Below, piece after piece: positions 7,101 through 56,882 of a DNA stretch of 64,000 nt. Each line of letters begins with the position of its first letter. The stretch's first letter is position 1. The notes beneath the pieces were generated by a model. That model had not been told where the DNA came from. It saw only the letters and a program-made list of their open reading frames with translations, and did no database searches. Origin of the DNA: a virus; IMG/VR virus record IMGVR_UViG_3300045107_000106, positions 1 to 64,000 of that record; one strand, given 5' to 3'. The translations under genes and the position numbers were made by a program.

Positions 7101-7655
7101 ATGGGCAGACCAGCACTACCACCAAAAGAGAAGGCAAGACGCAATAAAGAACAACGCCAAAAACGACTAGCCGAGCAGCACAAGCGGCTTGAGGCTGGTC
7201 TTTGTCGGCAATGTGGCGAGCCTCGATCTGACAAGTCGCAAGTATTCTGCGACAAGCATTTGGCTCGACATCGAGAAACATGTCGTGGTTATGCAAGCAA
7301 TGAAGACCCGAATACTGCAAAATACCGCAGGCTAAAAAGCTCGGCACAGCAACGAAGCATAACCGTAGATTTTGATAAAGAAGAATTCATGGCATGGTTC
7401 GAGGGTGAGCAGAAGCAGTGTCATTACTGCGGAATCGAAGAACACCGCCTACACCAACACCATGACCCTAAACAAAGAAGATTGACTGTAGATCGAAAGG
7501 ATAGTAAACGGCACTACTGTGTGAACAACATCTGCTTGGCTTGCTTCCGATGCAACAACATGAAAAGCAACTTCTTCACTTCGGAAGAGTGGATGGGCAT
7601 TGCACTAAATATCATCAGGCCGAGGCTTGCCGAATACCATAACCTCGGAGAGTGA
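7101..7655 (+). CDS. HNH endonuclease, homing type
   Basis: 184 residues. An N-terminal cysteine cluster ('CRQCGEPR', later 'FCDKH') is a zinc finger. The HNH nuclease core is in 'CHYCGIEEHRLHQHH', 'LTVDRKDSKRHYCVNN' and 'CLACFRCNNMKSNF'. Proteins of this kind nick or cut phage DNA and spread by homing. The gene is more AT-rich than its neighbours, which fits recent arrival. It overlaps the next gene's leader by a few bases, as if inserted in front of it. A CTAAATA motif is at 7079-7085. Confidence 0.8.
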   Translation: MGRPALPPKEKARRNKEQRQKRLAEQHKRLEAGLCRQCGEPRSDKSQVFCDKHLARHRETCRGYASNEDPNTAKYRRLKSSAQQRSITVDFDKEEFMAWFEGEQKQCHYCGIEEHRLHQHHDPKQRRLTVDRKDSKRHYCVNNICLACFRCNNMKSNFFTSEEWMGIALNIIRPRLAEYHNLGE

Positions 7656-8756: not shown

Positions 8757-8951
8757 CTAGACTAATTGGTACTTTCGGTCCATCGTCATTCGCATGCCGT
8801 CAGTCTGCAACAGGTAGCTGAGGGCGTCGATGACCTGCCACTCCTTGACACCTGGGTCAAGGAACAACACCTTCTGAATGACTTCCAGAGGCCGCATCGG
8901 GTTCGCCGACATCGCCTCTTTTACCTTCGAGAGAACGTAGTCATTTTTCAT
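8757..8951 (-). CDS. small hypothetical protein, possible winged-helix fold
   Basis: 64 residues, helical, ending in 'MRMTMDRKYQLV'. The order helix-helix-helix-hairpin ('VIDALSYLLQTDG' then a basic strand pair) resembles a small winged-helix DNA-binding domain, but this is only a shape guess. Its start overlaps the stop of the upstream gene by 11 bases. Confidence 0.5.
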   Translation of the reverse strand: MKNDYVLSKVKEAMSANPMRPLEVIQKVLFLDPGVKEWQVIDALSYLLQTDGMRMTMDRKYQLV

Positions 8952-9624
8952 GCTTGAACTCCCGGTTGAAGAACTCCTGAAGGTCGGCGTTAAGGTTGGC
9001 CTGATAGACGGTTACGTCAAAGCCAACACCCTTCGCCAGCTTCTCCAGGGCGTCCATTTTCTTGATCCACGGTGAGAGCAGCAGGTAGTAGTGGGATACC
9101 TTGCCGCTGCTCACCCAATACTTCATCTTCGGACCGTCCACCGCCTCTTTTGTCTTATCGAAGGTCGGCTCGCCGTCGAACTTCTCGAACAGGAACCGCT
9201 TCGTGCAGTCCAGTTCTTTCGTGATCTTCGGGTTGACGACCAACGGTCGGGGCGGCGTATCAGCTTCAACGTGTGTGGCCTTCTTCTCCATCAGCCGCTT
9301 CCAGACCTGATACCGCACCCACGCCTTGTCGCCACAAATGCCGTTCGGCTCGACCCTTGCGTTGTAGGTCTTGAGGACGTGCAGGTTGGCCGAGATGTAA
9401 TCCTTCAGGCTGCTCTCGTCGAGCAGGCCACGGGTTTCTCGGATGAGCTTCCAGCAGTGCTTAAAAAGGTTGCACTTCCTCGGGTCGCCTTTGTCGGGTA
9501 GCTTGGCGAGGCGTTGATCTGGGAAAATTCTCTTACAAAGCTCCTCCCAGATGCAGGCGGCTCGGAACGCCTTCGCCTCGTCGGGGGTCATGTTCCATTC
9601 GAAGATCGCCTGCATCCGTGTCAT
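8941..9624 (-). CDS. hypothetical protein
   Basis: 227 residues, mostly helical, with scattered cysteines and no catalytic motif I recognise. It starts MTRMQAIFEWNMTPDEAK and ends FNREFKHEK. It lies in a leftward chain with 4 bases to the upstream gene and an 11-base overlap downstream. Confidence 0.6.
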   Translation of the reverse strand: MTRMQAIFEWNMTPDEAKAFRAACIWEELCKRIFPDQRLAKLPDKGDPRKCNLFKHCWKLIRETRGLLDESSLKDYISANLHVLKTYNARVEPNGICGDKAWVRYQVWKRLMEKKATHVEADTPPRPLVVNPKITKELDCTKRFLFEKFDGEPTFDKTKEAVDGPKMKYWVSSGKVSHYYLLLSPWIKKMDALEKLAKGVGFDVTVYQANLNADLQEFFNREFKHEK

Positions 9625-9627
9625 AGT

Positions 9628-10044
9628 TCACCTTACCGGATCGAAGTTCGCCGTCGTTCCGTATGAGTCCGCAAAGTCTTTGCAGACTTGGTATTTACTC
9701 TTGAGGACATTCGGGCGACCTTCGAAGTATAGTTCTTCGTTGGACTCGCCGACCCGAATGAACCCTTCATTCAGTAAAAGCCGCCTGATCTCGTGTCGAG
9801 CATCAGTGCAGGCGATTTCGTAAATGTGCCACTCGGCGTTGTGGCTGCCTTCTCTGTCGGCAAGTTCTGAGTGGTCCCTGTGCATCTCGTCGAGCTTGCT
9901 GATGATATCGCCGATCTTCGGGACTTTCTTGATGAAGTATGGGTTTTCGGACACAATTTCGATATGCTCGTAGAGTTGGCACTGGATGAACTCACCGTTC
10001 GGGCAGAGCCATCCTGCCACTTTGGCAGCCAAAGGGTCTGGCAT
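9628..10044 (-). CDS. hypothetical protein
   Basis: 138 residues from ATG at 10044, chosen because AAGGAGG lies about 6 bases upstream; a TTG codon two codons earlier is not needed. Helical, containing 'LDEMHRDHSELADREG'. Function unknown. Its promoter side opens onto the long structured region at 10045-10559. Confidence 0.6.
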   Translation of the reverse strand: MPDPLAAKVAGWLCPNGEFIQCQLYEHIEIVSENPYFIKKVPKIGDIISKLDEMHRDHSELADREGSHNAEWHIYEIACTDARHEIRRLLLNEGFIRVGESNEELYFEGRPNVLKSKYQVCKDFADSYGTTANFDPVR

Positions 10045-10259
10045 GGGCAACCTCCTTGTTTCGGGTCTAAAGTAACACTTCTTACGGAATGCGCCAAGTC
10101 CGCTTGTTTCTCTTCAAGGATTTTGGTAGAAAGATCGATGATACAGAGCAGGTGGCTCTCTCCACCAGACACAACCGGCTTGCAGTCGCCAGGGCGTGTC
10201 TTAGAAGAAAACCTGGGATTACGAATGTTTTCGTAACACCGGCCAGTCTCCAACCGGGG

Positions 10260-10540
10260 GACTAAGGGCTTGTCCCGACGATCAAGGTAAGCTCGTACTC
10301 CGATACCCTTAAAGCCGAAGTGCTTGTGCGATATATGCCCCGAGGGTGGTCACAAGCTAAGAGTACAGTTAGGCGATCATCTAATAGCTGCACTGGACTT
10401 TCGTTCAGTTGTTAAATACCAACTCTCGACGCTCCGCACTTAGACAAGTGCCGGAGATAACTTCTCTACGGCTGTAGCTTTGCGCTATATCTTAAAAGAG
10501 AAGTTATATATCTGAGTTGTATTTAACACCTTCGGCCCCC
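10260..10540. ncRNA. candidate large structured RNA in a 515-base gene-free gap
   Basis: The gap 10045-10559 has no convincing gene but many strong stems. TGTTAAATAcCAACTC (10410-10425) pairs with GAGTTGTATTTAACA (10514-10528), and this helix encloses two hairpins: CTCCGCACTT/AAGTGcCGGAG (10432-10456) and a perfect 11-base stem ATAACTTCTCT/AGAGAAGTTAT (10457-10467 with 10497-10507). Upstream, GTACTC/GAGTAC (10295-10300 with 10361-10366) encloses GCTTGTG/CACAAGC (10322-10328 with 10351-10357), and ACTGGAC/GTTCAGT forms a further hairpin near 10392-10409. The nested three-way junction suggests a folded RNA. Strand is not certain, and it matches no RNA family I know. Confidence 0.55.
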
Positions 10541-10562
10541 GGTATGCGCCCTGCCAACAGTG

Positions 10563-10817
10563 ATGTACATCGCTACACTATTCCAGCCGAGTCTTGAGTC
10601 AGTCGAGAACTGGATGTGTTTCGACGACGAGGAACTGGCAATCCGCAAGGCCCGACACTTCCTCTACGATTTCAGCTACGACACCTTCATCGTGATCTAC
10701 CACCCCAACGGCCAACCATCGCAGTTCGTCTTCTGGCTCGACGACACGGTTTGCCATAGTCCCGAAGCCCCCGCCTGTTTCGGCCCAAAAGTGGATTGGC
10801 GCAACGAGGGGTTTTGA
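10563..10817 (+). CDS. hypothetical protein, first of a tandem pair
   Basis: 84 residues, MYIATLFQPSLESVENW to the end PKVDWRNEGF. The next gene encodes a protein of the same length and plan with a nearly identical tail (KLDWRKYGF), so the two are probably tandem duplicates. No clear ribosome-binding site is seen, which may link its start to the structured RNA just upstream. Function unknown. Confidence 0.55.
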   Translation: MYIATLFQPSLESVENWMCFDDEELAIRKARHFLYDFSYDTFIVIYHPNGQPSQFVFWLDDTVCHSPEAPACFGPKVDWRNEGF

Positions 10818-10832
10818 GTAACATCGGGACTC

Positions 10833-11099
10833 ATGTACTCCGTCCTTTTCATCTGGCCCAGCAACGACGTTGAAGAAGAGTGTTTCCAGAAGTACGCCAA
10901 TCTGGAAGACGCATTCTCCTTCGGCCACACCAAGATGCAGTCCATGCCCGGTGCGGTCATGTGCGTCATCGTCCGCCCAGGCAGACAGAGCGTGCGAATC
11001 TGGTGGGATGCCAGTCGCCTCGTCTCGAACCTGCCCGAACTAAAAGAAAGCGAGCCGAGTTTAGCGCAAAAACTTGATTGGCGCAAGTACGGTTTCTAG
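10833..11099 (+). CDS. hypothetical protein, second of a tandem pair
   Basis: 88 residues. It starts MYSVLFIWPSNDVEEE and ends QKLDWRKYGF, matching the preceding protein at the tail and in overall strand-helix-strand order ('VMCVIVRPG' against 'TFIVIYHPNG'). The shared fold is a small alpha/beta sandwich by eye. Function unknown. Confidence 0.55.
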   Translation: MYSVLFIWPSNDVEEECFQKYANLEDAFSFGHTKMQSMPGAVMCVIVRPGRQSVRIWWDASRLVSNLPELKESEPSLAQKLDWRKYGF

Positions 11100-11145: not shown

Positions 11146-11595
11146 ATGGCTGCCTACGGCTACTTCTACCACGTCACCGATAATCCCAATTGGGCCTTCT
11201 CCGTTCGACTCTCGCCTCGGATCACGAACCGATGCGACCAGGACGAGCCGCCGGTCCCCCGCATTTGCGTCTGCCCGACCGTCGCCGGTTGCTTCATGGC
11301 GGCGTGCTACACCGAGGGCTACCGGCGAGTCTACCGCACCCGGAAGAAGGTTCACGCCGTAGAGCCGTACCGGGTTTACGACTCAAAGGTCACGGGCGAA
11401 CTCTGGCTGCTCGAACCGACGGACTTCGTTCTGATTCACGACTTCACTGAAGACGACATCGAGCGGTTCCCCAGGAGCTTCAGTCATTGCAAGACTGACC
11501 GGGGGATGATTAACAGCCAGATCGCCGCCAAGAAGCGGCTGATCCAGCACTTCACGAACATCGGACACGAACTGCCGAGGGCACAATGGATTTGA
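11146..11595 (+). CDS. hypothetical protein
   Basis: 149 residues, starting MAAYGYFYHVTDNPNWAF. The early 'YHVT' and following strand pattern, with 'VYRTRKKVHAVEPYRVYD', is reminiscent of small phage proteins with an ADP-ribosyltransferase-like or RES-like beginning, but no catalytic triad can be assigned. It overlaps the polymerase gene start by 10 bases, implying coupled translation. Confidence 0.55.
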   Translation: MAAYGYFYHVTDNPNWAFSVRLSPRITNRCDQDEPPVPRICVCPTVAGCFMAACYTEGYRRVYRTRKKVHAVEPYRVYDSKVTGELWLLEPTDFVLIHDFTEDDIERFPRSFSHCKTDRGMINSQIAAKKRLIQHFTNIGHELPRAQWI

Positions 11596-12881
11596 TGGAA
11601 TTCAGTGAAGCCCTGGGGAGAATCGGCGAGCAGTCTGCTATCTACATGTACGCCGATCCGGTCGTCCCCGACTTCACTACGGGAAACGGGTTCGACCTTC
11701 ACGTTTTCGGAAGTGGAATCTCAGCCAGCACCGAGGTAAACCCCAAGACCTGCCGCAACATTGCGTCCATGCTCGACATGGCGATCACCGTCCCCGGCAA
11801 GACCCTTCTTGCCTACGACATCAAAAGTACGATCAGTTACATCCGCCATTACCTGAAGAAAGGACTCAACGTCCAGGGCAACCTGATCGACATCCGCATC
11901 GTCGAGAAGTTCATGGGCAAGGACGAGCGGCCCCCTACCTCGTTCGTGGACGCCGTGGCCCGCTCCCGTGAACTGATGAAAGACAAGTCGTGGGTGCCGC
12001 TGTTCAAGAAGCTGCATCAGCCGCTCGCCGTGGAGACGATCCCGGCGATGGAGACGGTGGCCCTGCTGGACACGGAGGCGAAGTACGCCAAGTGGGGCTG
12101 TTACGAAATCGAGGGGCAGACCAACGGGCGGCTGCGGAGCTACAAGGCGTTCGACAAGTCGTATCTGCCGCACACGCTGTCGGACGACCAGAAGCAGTTC
12201 CTCAAGCCACGGGGCGTGAGGGAGAGCTTCCTGTACTTCGACATCAAGAACTGCGAAGTGACGGTCATGGGCTGGCTGTCGGGTGACGCCTACCTGTACG
12301 ATCTAACCCACGGTGAGGCCGACGTATACGCCGCCATCTATAAGGACGTGACGGGCGACCAGTGCAACAGCGACAAGAAGCGGGAGATGGCGAAGCTGAT
12401 GTTCCTGTCGGTCATGTACGGCAGCGGGTCGAAGACGCTCTCGGAGAAGCTGAAGATCAATTTGAAGGTTGCAGAGGAGTTGGTGGCCCGTATCCACGGG
12501 CGGTTTAAGACGACATCGAACTACATGAAGGGCTTGCAGGAGCAGGCCAAAGACGGCCCGGTGACGGACAAGTTCGGGCGGAAGCGGGAGTACGAGTCCC
12601 CGTACATCGCACGCAACGCCGTGACGCAAGCTGCGGCGGCGATGGCGTGCCTAGAGAAGTTGAATGAAATCCATGCGGTGCTGAAGTCCACTCCGGCTCG
12701 GCTCTGCTTATCGGTTCACGACGGCTACTGCGTCGTTAGCCCGACGGATTACCTAAAAGACGCATACAGTAAGATTAAGGGCGTCTTTGAGGTTGATTCT
12801 AACCTGTGTAATGGGTTAAGATTCAAAGTCGGGTACAGCGTCGGCGACACGCTCGGCACGCTGACATCTTTCGGTTCTTAG
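11586..12881 (+). CDS. family A DNA polymerase, short form
   Basis: 431 residues covering the polymerase half of PolA. The conserved 'GRLRSYKAF' block (181-189) precedes motif A, 'FDIKNCEVTVMGWLSGD', with D219 and E224 in the expected DxxxxE spacing. Motif B lies around 264-281 (KKREMAKLMFLSVMYG). Motif C is 'SVHDGY' (H378, D379), where the glutamate usual in HDE is glycine. The first 170 residues are too short and degenerate for a proofreading domain; a separate DEDDh exonuclease is encoded at 16860. Family A enzymes are usually longer than 550 residues. It leads a block with helicase and recombination genes, so it is likely part of phage replication. Confidence 0.82.
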   Translation: MDLMEFSEALGRIGEQSAIYMYADPVVPDFTTGNGFDLHVFGSGISASTEVNPKTCRNIASMLDMAITVPGKTLLAYDIKSTISYIRHYLKKGLNVQGNLIDIRIVEKFMGKDERPPTSFVDAVARSRELMKDKSWVPLFKKLHQPLAVETIPAMETVALLDTEAKYAKWGCYEIEGQTNGRLRSYKAFDKSYLPHTLSDDQKQFLKPRGVRESFLYFDIKNCEVTVMGWLSGDAYLYDLTHGEADVYAAIYKDVTGDQCNSDKKREMAKLMFLSVMYGSGSKTLSEKLKINLKVAEELVARIHGRFKTTSNYMKGLQEQAKDGPVTDKFGRKREYESPYIARNAVTQAAAAMACLEKLNEIHAVLKSTPARLCLSVHDGYCVVSPTDYLKDAYSKIKGVFEVDSNLCNGLRFKVGYSVGDTLGTLTSFGS

Positions 12882-12888
12882 GAGGACA

Positions 12889-13452
12889 ATGCAATCGATT
12901 ATAAACAACTTCCCCATCAACAACGAGGAATATGCAGCCCTCGAAAAGAAGTTCGGCCTCTTGGCACACGACCAAGCGTGGCAGCTAAAGAGGAAGAACT
13001 ATAACAACAACATGACCGACGAGCAGGAGGATGTGGTACAAGAAATCCGCATTGCTATGATTCGGGCCGGGTCGTATTACAAGCGTCAGACCTACATTGA
13101 GAACTCCTTCCGTTCGCTTCGCCGCCGGGTCCGTGACCCGTTCTTGCGGGGCGTGCTGGAGGAGTTGAAGTCGTTGTGGAAGAACCGCACCCGCCACGGG
13201 GCGAACCGACAAAAATTCGGTCCGCACCAGGAGCGGATGTTGGATCGCCTCGTCCGCCGGTTCGTGCCGGAGGACCGCCAGCCGAGCCGGGAAGCCCCGC
13301 TCCAACTGGACACGAAGTTCCAGACCTACTGCAAGCAGATCACCTGGAACCACCAGAAGCTTTTGGGTAAGAAAATCACCCGAGAGAAGTCTTGGCGGAC
13401 GGGTCTTGTCTCTCTAAACGACTTCGACTACTTGGCTAAGAGCGAACTGTAA
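12889..13452 (+). CDS. possible sigma-like protein
   Basis: 187 basic residues. The stretch 'DEQEDVVQEIRIAMIRAG' looks like the start of sigma-factor region 2 (acidic, then hydrophobic helix). Later 'FQTYCKQITWNHQKLLGKK' resembles the FxTY-W segment of region 2.3-2.4. T4 late transcription uses such a divergent sigma (gp55). The likeness is by pattern only; it could be another helical DNA-binding protein. GGAGG precedes the start, and it sits between polymerase and helicase genes. Confidence 0.45.
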   Translation: MQSIINNFPINNEEYAALEKKFGLLAHDQAWQLKRKNYNNNMTDEQEDVVQEIRIAMIRAGSYYKRQTYIENSFRSLRRRVRDPFLRGVLEELKSLWKNRTRHGANRQKFGPHQERMLDRLVRRFVPEDRQPSREAPLQLDTKFQTYCKQITWNHQKLLGKKITREKSWRTGLVSLNDFDYLAKSEL

Positions 13453-49214: not shown

Positions 49215-51164
49215 ATGGACTTCGTGTTGTCCCACCCCTGGCTGATGGTAGGTGCGGGGGTGGCGTTCGTCCTCCTGCTCCTGGTCTGGCTCGGCGTCCG
49301 CTTCGTGGCGAACGACCGACTGGCAATCGTGGAAAAGCTGTGGGGCAGCAAGTCCCTCAGTGAAGGCGACATCATCGCCCTCAACGGCGAGGCGGGCTTC
49401 GAGCCGGACGTGAAGCGTGGTGGCTTCCACTTCGGCTACTGGCGGTGGCAGTTCAAGTTCCACAAGCGGAAGCTCATCACCATCAAGCAAGGCAAGATCG
49501 GCTACGTCTTCGCACGGGCCGGGAGTGCCCTGGCCCCGACCCAGACACTCGGCACCGTCGTCGAGTGCAACAACTTCCAGAACGCCCGTGCGTTCTTGAA
49601 CAACGGCGGGCAGAAGGGTCGCCAGCGGGCCATCCTGCGTGAAGGCGTGTACGCCATCAACCTCGCTGTGTTCAGCGTCATCGCCGACGACGGCGTGTAC
49701 AGCCTGGACAACGACCGGAACCTGGAGTCGTGGCGTGAGCAACTGACCAACTGCCACGGGTTCGACCCGGTGGTGGTCGGGCAAGACGCCGACGACATCG
49801 GCATCGTGACCACCCAGGACGGCCCGGCTCTGGATCAGGGCGAGATCATCGCCCCGGCCGTCGGGACGAAGAAGGACGACCCGAACTACCACTCGAACTT
49901 CCAAGACATCGAGAAGTTCCTGGCCGCAGGCGGGCGGCGTGGCCTCCAGTACGCCGTGCTGCTGGACGGGACGTACTTCATCAACCGCTGGTTCGCCGAC
50001 GTGGAACTGAAGCCCAAGTTCGTCGTTCCCATCGGGAACGTCGGCGTGGTCGTCAGCTACTACGGCAAGCAAGGGACCGACACGAGCGGCACCAAGTTCC
50101 GCCACGGCGAGCGGGTCCACGAGGGCGAGCGGGGCGTGTGGGAAACCACGCTCGGTCCGGGCAAGTACCCGTTCAACCCCTACGCCGGGAACATCGTCCT
50201 GGTGCCGACCACGAACTTCGTGCTGCACTGGATCACGGGCAAGTCGGAAGGCCACAAGTACGACGAGAGCCTGAAGTCCATCGACCTGATTACGAAGGAC
50301 GCCTACGAGCCGATCCTGCCGCTGAGCGTCGTGGTTCACTGCGACTACCAGAAGGCTCCGAACGTCATCCAGCGGTTCGGTGATGTTAAGCAACTCATCA
50401 CCCAGACCATCGACCCGCTGCTGTCCGCCTTCTTCCGGGACGTGGCCCACAAGAAGACGATGCTGGAACTCGTTCACAGCCGGGACGAGATTCAGAAGCA
50501 GGCTCGTGTCGAACTGCGGGACAAGTTCCAAGAGTTCGACATCGAGTGCATCGACGTGCTGATCGGTCGCCCGGAGAGTGCGAAGGGCGACGACAAGATC
50601 GAGAACCTGCTGGAACAACTCCGGCAGCGGCAACTGTCGCTCGAACAGATCGAGACGTTCGGGAAGCAGGAAGCGGCTGCGGAGAAGCAGAAGTCGCTGA
50701 ACGACGCCCAGAGCCGGGCCGTTCTCCAGAAGGAACTGACGGCATCGGCGATCAAGATTCAGATCGCCGCCAACGACGCCGAAGCGAACCTCGCTCGGGC
50801 GAAGAAGGAAGCCGAACAGACCGTCGTCACCGCAGAGGCCGAAGCCAAGAAGCTCAGCCTCGAAGGTAAGGGTAAGGGCGAACTGATCCTGAGCGTCGGC
50901 CAGTCCGAGGCCGAAGTCCTCCAGAAGAAGATCGCCTCGTTCGGCGACAGCAACCTGTACGCCCTGAGCGTCATCGCCGAGTTCCTGTCCAAGAGCGAAC
51001 AGCCGCTCGTCCCGGCGACGGTGCTGGGTGGCGGCGGGGACAACGCTGGCGTCCTGAGCCTGCTGATGAACCTGATGGTCAAGGAGAAGATCACGCCCCG
51101 AGACGACGGCGTGACGTTCCTCAGCACGAAGAACGGCAACGGGCACGTCGTCGAAAAGAAGTAA
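49215..51164 (+). CDS. SPFH / flotillin-like membrane protein
   Basis: 649 residues. A single TM helix (about 9-32) is followed by a band-7/SPFH domain (about 33-390), including 'YGKQGTDTSGTKFRHGERVH' and 'SIDLITKDAYEPILPLSVVV', then a long coiled coil (430-590) rich in Lys, Glu and Gln with an 'AEAEAKKLSLEGKGKGEL' segment, the typical flotillin layout. These proteins organise membrane patches or hold proteases such as FtsH. A large one in a phage is noteworthy. It is between terminators, so it is its own unit. Confidence 0.82.
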   Translation: MDFVLSHPWLMVGAGVAFVLLLLVWLGVRFVANDRLAIVEKLWGSKSLSEGDIIALNGEAGFEPDVKRGGFHFGYWRWQFKFHKRKLITIKQGKIGYVFARAGSALAPTQTLGTVVECNNFQNARAFLNNGGQKGRQRAILREGVYAINLAVFSVIADDGVYSLDNDRNLESWREQLTNCHGFDPVVVGQDADDIGIVTTQDGPALDQGEIIAPAVGTKKDDPNYHSNFQDIEKFLAAGGRRGLQYAVLLDGTYFINRWFADVELKPKFVVPIGNVGVVVSYYGKQGTDTSGTKFRHGERVHEGERGVWETTLGPGKYPFNPYAGNIVLVPTTNFVLHWITGKSEGHKYDESLKSIDLITKDAYEPILPLSVVVHCDYQKAPNVIQRFGDVKQLITQTIDPLLSAFFRDVAHKKTMLELVHSRDEIQKQARVELRDKFQEFDIECIDVLIGRPESAKGDDKIENLLEQLRQRQLSLEQIETFGKQEAAAEKQKSLNDAQSRAVLQKELTASAIKIQIAANDAEANLARAKKEAEQTVVTAEAEAKKLSLEGKGKGELILSVGQSEAEVLQKKIASFGDSNLYALSVIAEFLSKSEQPLVPATVLGGGGDNAGVLSLLMNLMVKEKITPRDDGVTFLSTKNGNGHVVEKK

Positions 51165-56482: not shown

Positions 56483-56876
56483 GGGGCCGCTCCGGTATCG
56501 AACCGGCGTCAACGGCCGAAAGGACTTGCGTAGTGGTTGGTCGGTGGGCCACTTAAAAAAGCCGACTAAGCCTTAACTGGCGATACTCTCAGAATGGCTG
56601 CCTGAGTTGTGCCCTCGCAAGGGGGCACCGCAATAGCGGCCAAATGAGTCTTCGGACTCAGGGACTCACAGAAGCGATGCTCCAAGCGTCTGTGTTTCTC
56701 ACGCCAAAAAGGAGACGAAGCCTAGTGAGTGTCGGTTGTAGCTAGGCGGGTCGCTAACCGAGAATCCCGGTGGTTTTGCCAGTTGTACGGCACCGTGGAT
56801 TATCAACAACTGGATACACGCATAAACGCCTTCGGAAGTTCGCTTGGTCACAGGGGTTCGACTCCCCTCGGCTCCA
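56483..56876 (+). ncRNA. ssrA: transfer-messenger RNA (tmRNA)
   Basis: The 5' end GGGGCCG pairs with CGGCTCC at the 3' end (56869-56875), with a T-arm AGGGGTTCGACTCCCCT (56852-56868) and the usual 'TCCGGTATCGAACCGG' near the start. The tag frame reads GCC (56570-56572) to TGA (56603-56605) and codes ALTGDTLRMAA; the final Ala-Ala is as in known tags, while the penultimate residue is Met rather than Leu. CCA is not encoded (CTA follows the discriminator). tmRNA frees stalled ribosomes and tags the product for proteolysis. Several stem-loops (pseudoknot region) fill the middle. Confidence 0.88.
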
Positions 56877-56882
56877 CTAAGA

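Follow-up and report, generated by a model that had tools for sequence, protein, structure and literature searches.

Conserved RNA structure with a double-pseudoknot core at the head of the replication genes in a clade of large phages

A noncoding gap upstream of the DNA polymerase gene in a large-phage genome carries a conserved RNA structure, and 11 phage sequences have the same core where their replication genes begin. The DNA analysed, here called the window, is a stretch of 64,000 bases corresponding to positions 1 to 64,000 of the IMG/VR virus record IMGVR_UViG_3300045107_000106, whose full length is 107,079 bases. We lean toward the interpretation that a stand-alone phage RNA gene of about 415–420 nt occupies the + strand of this gap, with a sigma-70-like promoter at 10104–10132 and a double-pseudoknot core. 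A broader proposal has, in our judgment, an even chance of being correct: that this RNA represents a new stand-alone class of structured phage RNA, situated where the replication genes begin across a large-phage clade and functioning, in replication or in the takeover of the host, as an RNA machine (a scaffold, an RNP, or a particle). Phages have few known classes of large structured RNA, and what those classes do has yet to be settled.

Results

The gap spans 509 bases (10051–10559) between a − strand gene at 9628–10050 and small + strand genes that start at 10560. To its left, at 8941–9624 on the − strand, lies a conserved divergent gene of 227 aa that belongs to no family and holds the same position in most relatives. 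To its right, the + strand order is small genes, a family A DNA polymerase (11586–12881; PF00476, E 1.6e-21, and synteny), a 187-aa gene, a DnaB-like helicase, and a UvsX-like recombinase. The initial annotation had found no reading frame that fits this region, and indeed there is no open frame of at least 60 codons inside 10260–10540, where the longest have 39 and 43 codons. Indels of 1 and 2 bases distinguish a close relative, L002, from the window, and the gap is therefore judged not to be coding.

Several neighboring genes deserve brief description. The small genes at 10560–10817 and 10833–11099, between the RNA and the polymerase, have similar ends (KVDWRNEGF and KLDWRKYGF) and are apparently paralogues; only a version of the second is present in L002. 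The 187-aa gene (12889–13452) has no Pfam or PHROG family and shows 46–94% identity across large phages; part of it resembles sigma-70 region 2 by eye (EDxVQELRIALxRAGSYYKRQ). Elsewhere in the window, a gene at 7101–7655 displays an HNH-like cysteine/histidine pattern by eye, with no Pfam match, and a phage-encoded tmRNA at 56483–56877 has an unusual predicted tag, GDTLRMAA. A search of the window for tRNA genes found none.

The 187-aa gene is a good marker of this phage clade. Searches with it returned 53 and then 80 large-phage loci, many of them the same contigs, and a single match in the phage collection, an uncultured phage of 595 kb; its profile found no match in bacterial genomes. The polymerase used alone led to one contig, the adjoining gene at 9628–10050 to no confirmed relative, and a DNA similarity search in named phages to none. 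When a 20-base loop pattern was searched in IMG/VR, L002 was the sole relative matched. The order common to the relatives is a counterpart of the gene at 8941 on the − strand, the gap, the polymerase, the 187-aa gene, and the helicase. Both flanking genes are present in 62 distinct loci, and in 41 of these the two matches are separated by 400–1000 bases; where frames were listed, most such gaps contain no long frame. In L005 (4784–5947) and L007 (1522–2730), a second polymerase-like gene, recognized by motifs only, directly precedes the polymerase; one of these phages is the 595-kb LR756511. As far as can be seen from their motifs, these gap proteins do not appear to be replacements for the RNA.

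On the + strand, the gap region folds more stably than dinucleotide shuffles of itself (z = −3.84; 0 of 100 shuffles better). L002 (IMGVR_UViG_3300045256_000376) aligns to the gap over 504 bases at 85% identity, and the joint RNA fold of the two sequences contains seven pairs that have changed on both sides and still pair. Measured against column shuffles that preserve conservation classes, the alignment fold of 10139–10556 gives z = −8.0 for the + strand, and the − strand gives −6.2. The values in this pair of phages are −1.1 for the polymerase gene and 0.0 for the 187-aa gene. In all five alignments, folding is better on the + strand than on the − strand.

Four interlocked helices, making two pseudoknots, are common to the 11 sequences (window included) and lie upstream of the polymerase. 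Their 5′ strands follow one another in the order PK1, PK2, P2, P4; then come the 3′ strands of PK2, P4, and PK1 and, about 110–215 bases farther on, that of P2. P2 crosses PK1 and PK2 and no others, and P4 crosses PK2. On the + strand of the window, PK1 pairs GTACTC (10295–10300) with GAGTAC (10361–10366), where L002 has ATACTC/GAGTAT; PK2 pairs TACCCTT (10304–10310) with GAGGGTG (10342–10348), which lies within the P4 loop; P2 pairs GCCGAAG (10314–10320) with CTTCGGC (10530–10536); and P4 pairs GCTTGTG (10322–10328) with CACAAGC (10351–10357). Every counted pair covaries across the 11 sequences, 5/5 in PK1, 5/5 in PK2, 6/6 in P2, and 6/6 in P4. Thus all 22 counted pairs change on both sides, and 242 of 242 cells are paired across the 11 members, compared with 63% for shuffled partners and 30–42% for slid helices. 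Since the registers of the 22 pairs were chosen by the analyst, it is the position constraints and these controls that carry the covariation argument.

The helices were first read from alignments by hand. A script recovers the core, with similar short spacers, in the window, L002, L011, L019, L020, L028, and L049; it was then recovered in L063, L070, L080, and L092, which were left unused until the model had been fixed. The core is flanked by conserved AGGUAA, UUAG, and UAUGCGC, written as RNA. The first corresponds in the window to AAGGTAAG (10284–10291, + strand), directly 5′ of PK1, and reads AGGT or AAGT in all 11 members. TTAG follows PK1 at 10369–10372 (+ strand) and is found in 10 of the 11, L028 having TTAA. 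TATGCGC, at 10543–10549 (+ strand), occurs after P2 in the same form or as a one-base variant in most members and is absent from L011, L028, L063, and L070. A test on the 11 distinct contigs found AGGU, PK1, PK2, P2, and P4 in that order, with UUAG after PK1, on the + strand and upstream of the polymerase.

It might be argued that such stems arise by chance in noncoding DNA, for the DNA of the phage is GC-rich and a four-helix descriptor without motif anchors is unspecific in it, giving good fits elsewhere in the phage. Motif anchors were added to the descriptor for this reason. In an anchored search of both strands of 1.09 Mb of phage DNA, scores of −47 or lower occur at gap loci only, with one chance exception at window position 50279 (−47.2); the best scores are −25.7 on the reverse strand and −41.7 in shuffled DNA. 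The best matches omit L011, L028, and L063, and the motif is one base off in L011 and L028. The chance explanation is refuted by the alignment-fold z and the covariation, and the controls of the anchored search also argue against it; it can practically be dismissed.

Further stems surround the core, all on the + strand. The 5′ domain contains GGTGG/CCACC (10151–10155/10162–10166) and AGACAC/GTGTCT (10167–10172/10196–10201), the latter kept in L002 through two two-sided changes. Next comes an inverted repeat, TTACGAA/TTCGTAA (10219–10236), whose arms are identical in L002 and whose loop has changed; this is the upstream hairpin of the initial annotation (10219–10225/10230–10236), which is thus both present and preserved. 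Downstream of PK1, the hairpin CTGGAC/GTTCAG (10393–10408) has a G-U pair that becomes A-U in L002. A long 3′ stem, with its 5′ arm at 10411–10425 paired to about 10514–10527, bears two further hairpins. One of them, CTCCGCACTT/AAGTGCCGGAG (10432–10456), is kept in L002 with one-sided changes. The other, an inverted repeat with an inner stem (10457–10507), is a perfect 11-pair stem, ATAACTTCTCT/AGAGAAGTTAT. The perfect 11-base stem noted earlier is this one (10457–10467/10497–10507), and L002 retains it by a compensatory change from C-G to U-A. By eye, a comparable stem occupies the same position in L063 (CAACTTTT/AAAAGTTG) and in L028.

The 15-pair closing helix of the initial annotation (10253–10267/10529–10543) fares differently. 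It is present as complementarity, at 13/15 positions, but is not supported as a conserved helix. Its 3′ arm contains the P2 strand CTTCGGC, for which the relatives support GCCGAAG at 10314–10320 as the partner rather than 10253–10267, and one base change in L002 breaks a pair of the 15-base helix while leaving P2 intact. At the 5′ arm lies a conserved motif, AACCGGG (10252–10258, + strand), which several relatives (for example, L049, L063, L070, and L080) have in the corresponding position and which is not consistently complementary to their 3′ ends. The main claim of the initial annotation, an unexplained structured RNA-like region, stands: the gap is noncoding and contains a real structured RNA, the stems are kept by compensatory changes in L002 and in distant members, as the test set beforehand envisaged, and no Rfam family was found. 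Its interval of 10260–10540 does lie on the RNA and is too short, since the promoter and the compensated stems extend the RNA in the 5′ direction by a stretch at about 10139–10260.

The candidate promoter (10104–10132, + strand) consists of TTGTTT (10104–10109), a 17-base spacer, and TAGAAA (10127–10132). TTGnnn-17-TAnnnn is found in all 11 sequences, 151–216 bases before the PK1 core. Taken singly, the boxes are mostly no better than chance, and the −10 box of the window is weak (its last base is A); the argument for a promoter therefore rests on the similar position. The boxes would place the RNA start near 10139. Strong conservation between the window and L002 was traced as far as 10555; past that point the two phages have different genes. 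The predicted structured RNA gene, about 415–420 nt on the + strand, probably extends from about 10139 to about 10556, judging from the sequence. No terminator-like site was found after it on the + strand, so the 3′ end is uncertain and the RNA could belong to a longer leader.

The RNA might be an extended 5′ leader that acts in cis on the replication operon, exerting riboswitch-like or translational control on the genes downstream. It always lies upstream of the polymerase and in the same direction, and a fixed place beside that gene, unlike the placement of ROOL and GOLLD, is a hint of a cis role. Compact pseudoknotted cores with conserved unpaired bases are typical of ligand-binding leaders, and the core seen here is compact and pseudoknotted, with conserved bases flanking it. 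However, in eight of the nine members in which the polymerase directly follows (L011, L019, L020, L028, L049, L063, L070, and L080), a TAnnAT box ends 6–9 bases before the polymerase start codon, which suggests that the polymerase is separately transcribed from its own, nearly leaderless start. Moreover, the window and L002 share the RNA but not the gene that immediately follows it, and their polymerase genes lie at distances of 1.05 and 1.8 kb, respectively; and there is no Rfam riboswitch match. A leader is, on balance, somewhat unlikely. The window, too, has a similar box, TAACAT, 8 bases ahead of the gene at 10833.

Another possibility is that the structure marks a replication origin, where a structured transcript would either act as a primer for DNA synthesis or undergo processing. 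The gap is a divergent point of the genome, the cumulative GC skew has its minimum at 11,967 of 107,079, and genes for a polymerase, a helicase, and a recombinase adjoin. The skew minimum is confounded, because GC skew follows gene direction and gene direction also turns there. ATGCGC boxes stand at both ends of the RNA in several members but are missing in several others, and the compensatory conservation of a double pseudoknot exceeds what a primer needs. We consider an origin unlikely.

In the window the ATGCGC boxes lie at 10089–10100 and 10543–10549; the 5′ one, GCGCCAAG, has the look of the −35 element of a divergent promoter. Similar pairs of boxes occur in L019, L020, L049, and group C. 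Closure of the whole RNA by GCGC/GCGC (10091–10094/10546–10549) was considered but given up, since the GCGC on the 5′ side is situated upstream of the promoter and resembles the −35 box of a divergent promoter.

Other phages of the set have other structures in the same place. In group C (L036, L039, L043, and L045), the gap upstream of the polymerase contains an RNA-like element with strong structure (z = −8.1); the double-pseudoknot core was looked for there and not demonstrated, the core of this group being different or rearranged. The same gap in group B (L008, L015–L018, L021, L022, and L029) has structured elements with z of −3.6 and −4.5, in which a search likewise did not demonstrate the double-pseudoknot core; the element in L015, L016, L018, L021, L022, and L029 has a conserved GTAACCCGACAG...CTGTC..GGGGCCTGGGTCACGGTCC. 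The gap of group D (L050, L052, L054, L055, and L059) is AT-rich and has a long, near-perfect hairpin without the core. In L050, L054, L055, and L059 this hairpin is built around TTTACTCTGAGCGAAGCGAAGAGTAAA, with an invariant loop and a compensated outer stem.

Discussion

The RNA matches no family in Rfam. A search of the gap region against Rfam 15, up to E 10 with lax filters, gave chance matches only, and among known riboswitch and leader families there was just a chance L21_leader match of 16.1 bits (E 4), the cut-off being 36 bits. Fourteen relative loci gave no match at the gathering threshold, and six gave nothing above the cut-offs at E up to 1. The literature that we searched, whose coverage is incomplete, contains no description of this RNA. 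A group I or group II intron was considered and rejected: there is no Rfam intron match, and in most loci the RNA lies between two divergent genes.

The topology of the core invites comparison with self-cleaving or self-splicing ribozymes. HDV-type ribozymes have the strand order P1-P2-P3-P1′-P2′, a nested pseudoknot in which only a few nucleotides join P1 to P2. The order PK1-P2-hairpin-PK1′-P2′ resembles that arrangement in layout. The resemblance does not extend to the details. The segment joining PK1 to P2 is 13 nt long and holds PK2, an extra helix that has no HDV counterpart, so that the short P1–P2 joining region and helix P1.1 of the HDV type are not found; nor is there an Rfam ribozyme or intron match, or an interrupted gene. 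A ribozyme therefore seems very unlikely.

We favor instead a stand-alone RNA gene. A conserved, compact RNA that probably has its own promoter, and that the window and L002 share despite having different genes next to it, would fit a trans-acting RNA gene. In the proposed mechanism, host RNA polymerase would make the RNA early in infection, the timing being suggested by the host type of the promoter; the RNA would then fold up as a compact particle, by itself or together with protein, and act in trans during phage replication, as an RNA of broadly the ROOL and GOLLD sort. Its small size, the compact core defined by covariation, and the fixed place beside the DNA polymerase make structural work on it practical, and an RNA of about 420 nt could be followed in any cultured phage of the clade.

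ROOL and GOLLD often lie close to tRNA islands. They are large structured phage RNAs without known function that form RNA cages; ROOL is found in phages and prophages and has several pseudoknots, and expression of GOLLD goes up during lysis (PMC12286853). The RNA described here resembles ROOL in being a large structured phage RNA with several pseudoknots but differs in its length of about 420 nt, its place beside a polymerase gene, and the absence of tRNA genes from the window. It shares with GOLLD the character of a large structured phage RNA; many GOLLD members, however, exceed 800 nt, about twice its size, and occupy another genome position. Neither the ROOL covariance model nor the GOLLD model (conserved 3′ region) in Rfam matches the gap region or the relative loci, and since the RNA matches no family model it is not filed under either. 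In the lytic phage ICP1, an abundant noncoding transcript of ~800 nt comes from a space without ORFs (PMC7567579). That transcript is likewise long, noncoding, and similarly set, but it lies beside lysis genes; the comparison is one of setting. The best reading is that the RNA constitutes a new family that is broadly akin in kind to ROOL and GOLLD but belongs to neither.
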